DNA of 61,600 bases, taken from the NCBI GenBank assembly GCA_002705795.1, contig PAHG01000018.1:30455-92054 (forward strand), read 5' to 3'. Position numbers and translations under genes: made by a program. Below, one piece after another: positions 29,827 to 30,350 of the stretch (positions are counted from its first letter, which is position 1; each line of letters starts with the position of its first letter). This DNA comes from Gammaproteobacteria bacterium. Lineage in GTDB: Bacteria; Pseudomonadota; Gammaproteobacteria; Pseudomonadales; Litorivicinaceae. The notes beneath the pieces were generated by a model that saw nothing but the letters and a program-made list of their open reading frames with translations, was not told where the DNA came from and did no database searches.

Positions 29827-30165
29827 CTAGAGCGCGTCGTTACCTGATTCACCGGTACGGATACGGACCGCCTGCTCGAGGTTAACTACAAAGATTTTTC
29901 CGTCACCAATTTTCCCGGTGTTGGCTGCTTTCGAAATCGCTTCAATCACCTGATCTGCCTGATCATCTGACGTAGCGACTTCAATTTTCACTTTCGGTAG
30001 GAAATCGACGACATATTCCGCACCCCGATACAGCTCAGTGTGCCCCTTTTGACGACCGAAGCCTTTCACTTCAGTGACAGTGATGCCTTGCATGCCAATA
30101 TCTGACAATGCCTCCCTGACATCATCTAACTTAAACGGTTTAATAACCGCCGTTACCAGTTTCAT
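29827..30165 (-). CDS. glnK: PII signalling protein GlnK
   Basis: A 112-residue PII protein that senses glutamine, 2-oxoglutarate and ATP/ADP, and blocks AmtB when nitrogen is plentiful. It begins [20 protein letters not shown], and its T-loop contains Tyr51 (TELYRGAEY) that GlnD uridylylates. The family C-terminal signature is [18 protein letters not shown]. The ATG at 30165 has AAGGAGC five bases upstream; a longer frame to 30240 is rejected. Linkage to amtB makes this GlnK and not GlnB. Upstream lie a sigma-54 promoter and NtrC sites. Confidence 0.96.
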
Positions 30166-30223
30166 GTATAGCTCCTTACTAACAAGATCCCCAAAGGAGG
30201 AAATTCCTCGCTCAAGGGAGCAT

Positions 30224-30239
30224 TGCAGACACCGTGCCA
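30224..30239 (-). promoter_or_regulatory. Sigma-54 promoter of glnK-amtB
   Basis: On the minus strand TGGCACGGTGTCTGCA matches the sigma-54 consensus TGGCACG-N4-TTGCA with one mismatch, and the GG and GC pairs are 12 bases apart as required. Transcription would begin near 30213, giving a leader of about 48 bases before the glnK ATG. The element predicts RpoN-dependent, nitrogen-limited expression. Confidence 0.85.
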
Positions 30240-30293
30240 ATCAATCACTTCGCAGGAGATTGCGGGTTCTGGCGGTTTTTTACTGCCCAGAAA

Positions 30294-30308
30294 GCACCGA
30301 AATTGCGC
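30294..30308 (-). promoter_or_regulatory. Possible second NtrC binding site
   Basis: GCACC-GAAAT-TGCGC resembles the GCACY-N5-RGTGC NtrC site with a degenerate right half. Its centre lies about 88 bases upstream of the predicted glnK start. NtrC usually binds as a pair of dimers at two adjacent sites, so a weaker partner for the perfect site at 30336 is expected here. Confidence 0.5.
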
Positions 30309-30335
30309 ACACCACGCACTGTAACGACTTTCTCG

Positions 30336-30350
30336 GCACTAAAATAGTGC
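30336..30350 (-). promoter_or_regulatory. NtrC enhancer site of glnK-amtB
   Basis: GCACT-AAAAT-AGTGC is a perfect 15-base palindrome and an exact match to GCACY-N5-RGTGC. Its centre is about 130 bases upstream of the predicted glnK transcription start, a normal enhancer distance. Together with the sigma-54 promoter it indicates control by the NtrB/NtrC system. Confidence 0.8.

Follow-up and report, generated by a model that had tools for sequence, protein, structure and literature searches.

The window, by which we mean the whole 61,600-nucleotide stretch of DNA analysed here, carries a glnK-amtB pair on its minus strand, preceded by a nitrogen-type control region and, beyond it, by a small divergent gene (Table 1). 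GlnK scores above the NCBIfam cut-off for the P-II family and contains an 11-residue segment that we take to be the T-loop, and the divergent BMFP-domain gene is presumably of the YqiC/UbiK type. The strong terminator that an earlier note on this DNA had placed after amtB is present; because a terminator scan of 28200-30700 returned 2 sites against 3.1 in shuffles, that call rests on the quality and place of the terminator and not on the scan total.

Table 1. Features of the glnK-amtB region, numbered from the first nucleotide of the window.
Feature	Position	Strand	Basis or remark
Intrinsic terminator after amtB, 7 G-C pairs then TTTTTTT	28470-28486	-	Terminator scan
amtB, ammonium transporter, marine subtype, GTG start	28508-29776	-	TIGR03644, 665.5 bits, over cut-off
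amtB leader CACTTCGCAGGAGA, including Shine-Dalgarno GGAG	29783-29796	-	Exact complement of the block
glnK, PII signalling protein, 112 aa, ATG at 30165	29827-30165	-	NF007946, over cut-off
Predicted +1 of the sigma-54 transcript	30213	-	Inferred from -12 spacing
Sigma-54 promoter (-24/-12) TGGCACGGTGTCTGCA	30224-30239	-	Motif scan and genus alignment
Anti-RBS block TCTCCTGCGAAGTG, core of the 18-nt invariant segment	30246-30259	-	Complement of amtB leader
NtrC site 2 GCGCAATTTCGGTGC, 2 mismatches	30294-30308	-	42 bp from site 1 in 18/18 genus loci
NtrC site 1, exact palindrome GCACTATTTTAGTGC	30336-30350	-	0 mismatches; exact in 18/18 genus loci
Divergent BMFP-domain gene, 78 aa	30422-30658	+	PF04380, 64.3 bits

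The source genome comprises 1.79 Mb on 31 contigs and is 91% complete. By AmtB, the nearest named relative is the uncultured Litoricola sp. isolate AG-898-O07, at 87% identity in a search that may omit the window's own genome. The G+C content of the window, 49-50%, lies within the 47-51% that PMC8269220 gives for OM252 ('Candidatus Halomarinus', in GTDB under Litoricola), Litoricola proper being placed there at 58-60%, and the organism is therefore probably of the OM252 type. Around glnK, G+C runs from 45 to 53% in the window's genus and from 54 to 60% in a second genus of the family, values from stretches of about 2-3 kb that serve as a rough guide. This OM252/Litoricola-type clade of marine bacterioplankton, with LSUCC0096 and HIMB30 among its OM252 isolates, is called cosmopolitan (PMC8269220). 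Our genus set consists of 18 loci (L046-L063, L046 being the window's own), to which a named contig, L076, was added to give 19 rows; judging from its like sequence, L076 probably stems from the same genome as L062 or from a very near one.

glnK-amtB under an NtrC-activated sigma-54 promoter is known in E. coli, Pseudomonas and their relatives, and the standard nitrogen-limitation architecture that the earlier note had described is in place here, with its elements kept in all 18 genus loci. The -24/-12 box differs at one position from TGGCACGN4TTGCW, contains GG-N10-GC with a good match to the consensus, and is the only site of the window with at most one mismatch. Upstream of it, the perfect NtrC palindrome is the window's only exact GCACYN5RGTGC, and the second, weaker site likewise lies where it had been reported; their centres lie 88 and 130 nt upstream of the predicted +1, the distances first given. 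As motifs these elements carry little weight singly. Sigma-54 boxes with at most two mismatches are no commoner in the window than expected (9 against 10.7), so the box alone proves little, and NtrC-like sites within the same tolerance number 80 against 73 in shuffles. Genome-wide, 22 boxes have at most one mismatch where the reversed control pattern has 12, and exact palindromes number 8 where their control has 9; either motif taken singly is thus of little predictive value. The two are unlikely to have come together by chance: at only one place in the window does an exact palindrome start 20-200 nt upstream of a box with at most one mismatch, a range chosen after the site had been seen, and none of 300 dinucleotide-shuffled sequences has such a place.

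Judged from the aligned loci, conservation is better evidence for the promoter than motif matches are. The box has one mismatch and NtrC site 1 is exact in 18/18 genus loci; site 2 has one mismatch in 2 of them and two in the other 16; and the spacing of the NtrC sites, which amounts to four turns of 10.5 bp and so puts both on the same helical face, never changes. Conservation reaches 98-99% at the specified positions of the promoter elements and 84-86% in the remaining upstream columns. Both rpoN and ntrBC, whose absence had been named beforehand as an argument against this kind of control, are in the genome: rpoN scores 627.6 bits against the NCBIfam sigma-54 profile, and a glnA-ntrB-ntrC row, its ntrC at 698.8 bits, lies on the window's own contig about 3.2 kb beyond the window's end. 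The genome also has glnD, and it encodes six strong and three weak sigma-54 activator domains, one of the strong ones being the NtrC of glnA-ntrB-ntrC. On contig C8 (L003), a sigma-54 response regulator sits between two genes that we take to be gluQ and pcnB, presumably the arrangement seen for CbrB in Pseudomonas.

With the regulators present and the promoter elements more conserved than the surrounding DNA, dependence of glnK-amtB on RpoN and NtrC is strongly supported, and the comparison of loci argues well for an NtrC-activated sigma-54 promoter that drives both genes. Control by sigma-54 and NtrC, as first noted, is correct and ordinary. The claim that the control region was complete stands only in part: the elements named are real, but an element no less conserved than the promoter, and complementary to the amtB ribosome-binding site (RBS), had been left out.

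This element is an 18-nt block immediately upstream of the -24 box, AATCTCCTGCGAAGTGAT, which runs on the minus strand from 30261 to 30244. It is invariant in 18/18 genus loci, or 19/19 counting L076; L167, one more piece from the genus, has the 14-nt core intact and a change at a single flanking base within the block. The 14 core bases are the exact complement of the Shine-Dalgarno region of amtB, 451 nt downstream. The amtB arm is held just as tightly, its leader being invariant over 15 nt, ACTTCGCAGGAGAGT, in the 19 genus rows, and the sequence that precedes it varies; as Shine-Dalgarno function explains only GGAG, some 4 nt, this invariance exceeds what a Shine-Dalgarno needs. Contiguous Watson-Crick pairs link block and leader in all 21 family loci with a detected glnK-amtB pair, over 13 to 15 nt (13 nt in 2, 14 in 18 and 15 in 1), and the helix reaches as far as GGAG, or one base beyond, in the two genera alike. 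The one variation within the window's genus is at the terminal leader base, which is A in L056 and in L061 and gives the 13-nt cases. The leader of L166 reads as in these two, also with 13 nt, that of L164 is likewise GAACTTCGCAGGAGAG, and L191, the second copy in G012, has a 13-nt match. L050, dropped for want of a detected glnK-amtB pair, still shows a match of 14 nt.

In the second genus, all three loci (L064-L066) have another block, CTCCGCAAGGTTGG, and other amtB leaders, CCAACCTTGCGGAG. With GGAG as the anchor, the two genera have different bases on both sides at 7 of 13 pairs and no pair is broken, and the block of one genus matches the leader of the other over only 6 nt. The three second-genus loci amount to one evolutionary comparison, not three, and since the arms are nearly invariant within the genus (terminal leader base, 2/18), the covariation rests on this one between-genus comparison. 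What is found, then, is a stretch far upstream that complements the start of a downstream gene, conserved and covarying with it. The conserved block upstream of the sigma-54 promoter is apparently an undescribed element, and its likeliest role is promoter-dependent translational control of amtB.

How easily would such a match come about by itself? Dinucleotide shuffles of the 350-nt upstream region gave a match of at least 14 nt in 1/2000 cases for L046 and in 0/2000 for L065 of the second genus. When RBS regions of 51 window genes were compared with the DNA 60-1000 nt upstream of each, amtB was the outlier at 14 and the next gene reached 10; these genes are mechanically called open frames of at least 150 aa, each taken to start at its first start codon, so that some RBS regions are misplaced. 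Outside the family, none of 75 glnK-amtB loci exceeds 11 contiguous pairs, and none of 6 order-level loci, one of which (L184) comes from a genome already counted, exceeds 10. Detection of the gene pair left out 14 of 110 loci (L050, L068, L071, L073, L085, L092, L099, L113, L115, L119, L130, L131, L144 and L155); an extra set of 18 loci yielded 13 with the pair, the 6 order-level loci and 7 from the family, 6 of these 7 repeating counted loci and the seventh being L191. It could still be argued that standard Ntr control is all there is and that the complementary block plays no separate part: the Ntr elements fully account for nitrogen control, and a 14-nt match does arise by chance in about one of 2000 shuffles of one locus. 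That reading we consider very improbable, given a match kept in 21/21 family loci and re-created with different letters in the second genus, and arms that are both invariant while their flanks vary. Conservation, together with the shuffle, 51-gene and order-level controls, makes a chance origin of the complementarity unlikely.

The arms might also matter as DNA, either as two inverted copies of a protein-binding site or as the ends of an invertible segment that carries the promoter and glnK. As inverted copies they match perfectly, the 8 tabulated loci containing no G-U pair, and the copies are alike within a genus, as expected for sites of one co-evolving protein. Against this, one copy is the amtB RBS in both genera and stops at GGAG or one base beyond, the 14-mer is no palindrome, and the own genome (91% complete) has no further perfect copy of the core 12-mer, ACTTCGCAGGAG. 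Inversion is opposed by the single orientation of 22/22 family loci, with no inverted state seen; 21 of these come from a script that kept only pairs on the same strand, and L050, the one family locus it left out, has its amtB start in the usual orientation. The sole recombinase recognised between 24000 and 36000 is a gene at 25870-26766 that we take to be xerC-like, and a recombinase need not be local. On balance, DNA sites are an unlikely explanation of the arms. Two narrower candidates were rejected. An IHF site as the reason for the block is not borne out by conservation, a consensus with at most one mismatch occurring near it in 11/19 rows of the window's genus and in 0/3 rows of the second. 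A motif shared by a regulon is not apparent either, the only two perfect ACTTCGCAGGAG copies in the own genome being the two arms; with three one-mismatch places included, the 12-mer is found in 5 places, against 8 for a control pattern, and those three look like chance.

As RNA, the block is predicted to hide the start of amtB. In a model long transcript that begins 50 nt 5' of the block, an arbitrary choice, the amtB Shine-Dalgarno has an unpaired probability of 0.00, to two decimals, in 21/21 loci. The modelled sigma-54 transcript gives a mean of 0.39 (range 0.07-0.70, the low value being L059), and the long model with its block shuffled gives a mean of 0.36; all of these foldings disregard ribosomes and co-transcriptional kinetics. 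The leader of the sigma-54 transcript itself has little shared structure, RNAalifold finding over 18 loci only a 4-pair stem of -0.8 kcal/mol.

The predicted duplex, at -22.7 (the window's genus) to -26.4 kcal/mol (second genus), would also serve in trans: amtB mRNA might pair with a short RNA that is made from the upstream region and stops close to the sigma-54 promoter, possibly at the obstacle formed by bound sigma-54 polymerase. Alternatively, the duplex might be an RNase III cleavage site that inactivates amtB mRNA. The block is followed by no convincing terminator, only by a weak 5-pair site at 30188-30201, an Rfam search of 28200-31000 returned no RNA family at the gathering threshold, and a cis arrangement needs no separate RNA. 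We think both action in trans and RNase III cleavage improbable. To our preferred reading, an NtrC/sigma-54 promoter plus a cis-acting anti-Shine-Dalgarno block that masks amtB on transcripts started upstream, we assign a probability of roughly one half.

Why keep a block that the promoter next to it would leave behind? As the block lies 5' of the predicted sigma-54 start, the mRNA of nitrogen starvation should lack it. We propose that, under nitrogen-replete conditions, the block would be part of a basal transcript from further upstream, probably made by sigma-70 polymerase from a promoter that NtrC, bound to its sites, may repress. The block would pair over 14 bp with the amtB RBS across the glnK frame, so that GlnK would be made and AmtB would not. 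Under nitrogen limitation, phosphorylated NtrC would fire the sigma-54 promoter, whose mRNA would begin some 33 nt past the block; the amtB site would be freer, and both GlnK and AmtB would be made. The choice of promoter would thereby set the GlnK:AmtB ratio. In this promoter-selected translational switch, the leader of the upstream mRNA silences the second gene, the sigma-54 mRNA is free of the silencer, and a cell with a single PII can express either the sensor alone or the sensor and the channel; for the switch as a whole, we would put the odds slightly on the lower side of even.

Since the upstream neighbour is divergent, a block-carrying transcript needs a promoter of its own. A consensus sigma-70 scan of both strands of 28200-30700 found 0 sites, against 2.3 in shuffles. 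With weighted scoring, the candidate ATTTCA-17-TATTTT ranks among the top four in 13/18 genus loci; its score of 6.2 compares with a mean best shuffled score of 5.9 at the window's locus and of 5.3-7.1 over the genus. Candidates that end in TATGAT or TATAAT reach 6.7-7.4 in some genus loci, the window's own not among them, and the second genus shares none of the top four. These predictions lie at or near shuffle level and do not establish an upstream sigma-70 promoter. The -10 of ATTTCA-17-TATTTT falls inside NtrC site 1, so this candidate would be repressed by NtrC in the manner of glnAp1, and we offer it as a basal promoter by way of suggestion only. Between the two NtrC sites, the segment 30309-30335 is well conserved (TCGTTACAGTG in the window, close variants in most genus rows), and it might, going by this conservation, be part of the missing upstream promoter. 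A precedent for the arrangement is E. coli glnALG, where NtrC represses the basal promoter glnAp1 and activates the sigma-54 promoter glnAp2 on one operon (PMC3870243); the difference is that the accessible portion of that source describes no promoter-specific translational control of the downstream gene.

Control of the GlnK:AmtB ratio would make sense where a cell's only close PII is the amtB-linked GlnK and is needed in all conditions. PII is required in rich conditions to restrain NtrB, and AmtB is not. A GlnK-type match at E below 1e-30 occurs just once in 11 of the 12 family genomes of at least 90% completeness; in the own genome it is the amtB-linked copy, and G005 has two pieces. The own genome and G003, both among the 11, carry a distant PII-like match as well. 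A single PII does not require the block, as the three order-level genomes with a single GlnK match that could be compared, G026, G044 and G054, lack the element. In the own genome, a distant PII-superfamily protein (36.8 bits to PF00543; L012:1462-1818, contig C17) adjoins a large membrane protein. In G005, a divergent glnK (L164; 79% identity, GTG start, different upstream DNA) precedes an amtB with the usual leader, and the 5' part of a canonical glnK with the full promoter ends another contig (L167), an arrangement that may reflect duplication, recombination or an assembly break.

Set beside known systems, the locus combines familiar parts with one that is not. It shares with glnK-amtB of E. 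coli and Pseudomonas the gene order, the -24/-12 box, the paired upstream NtrC sites, ntrBC, rpoN and glnD, and differs in having an extra conserved anti-RBS block between enhancer and promoter. In UTNI coupling, as described for E. coli rplJL and atpHA, the start of the second gene is masked by long-range pairing with a segment inside the upstream reading frame, and the structure opens when that frame is translated (PMC6728339, PMC10666635). Here, too, the start of the second gene would be masked by a distant upstream segment, whereas this partner is located 5' of both the first gene and the sigma-54 start, and promoter choice, not ribosome passage, would decide. The block may thus work like UTNI masking, but it is not UTNI coupling, its partner lying outside the upstream frame. 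Salmonella ugtS-ugtL has two start sites that yield mRNAs differing in the genes translated, the short mRNA being without the RBS of the first gene (PMC8896665). In both cases one operon has, or would have, two mRNAs of which only one lets both genes be translated, whereas here it is the long mRNA that would carry an inhibitor of the second gene. A narrow search of titles and abstract openings, with subscription papers mostly outside it, turned up no promoter-selected silencer, control of amtB through its RBS or by a small RNA, or two-promoter RBS masking for glnK-amtB.

If true, the proposed switch would explain how bacteria that keep only an amtB-linked PII gene can have PII but no transporter when ammonium is plentiful. 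It would also provide a bacterial case in which the choice of promoter, rather than ribosome passage or a small RNA, decides whether a downstream gene is translated. The element is short and conserved, and a few point mutations would suffice to test it.

The own genome has a second amtB, on contig C11 (L157:2250-2384), whose control region is laid out differently. A sigma-54 box lies at 2250-2265, and the NtrC sites are found downstream of it, between promoter and start codon, with an exact NtrC palindrome that ends 18 nt before the ATG. Over the 10 loci of this second type (L170-L179, L170 from the own genome and L179 from another family), TGGCA is kept in 10/10, the box has at most two mismatches in 6, and an NtrC-like site stands between box and gene in every one (exact in 7, one mismatch in 3). 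Judging from these loci, the site may be a conserved downstream enhancer or, alternatively, a governor or repressor site.
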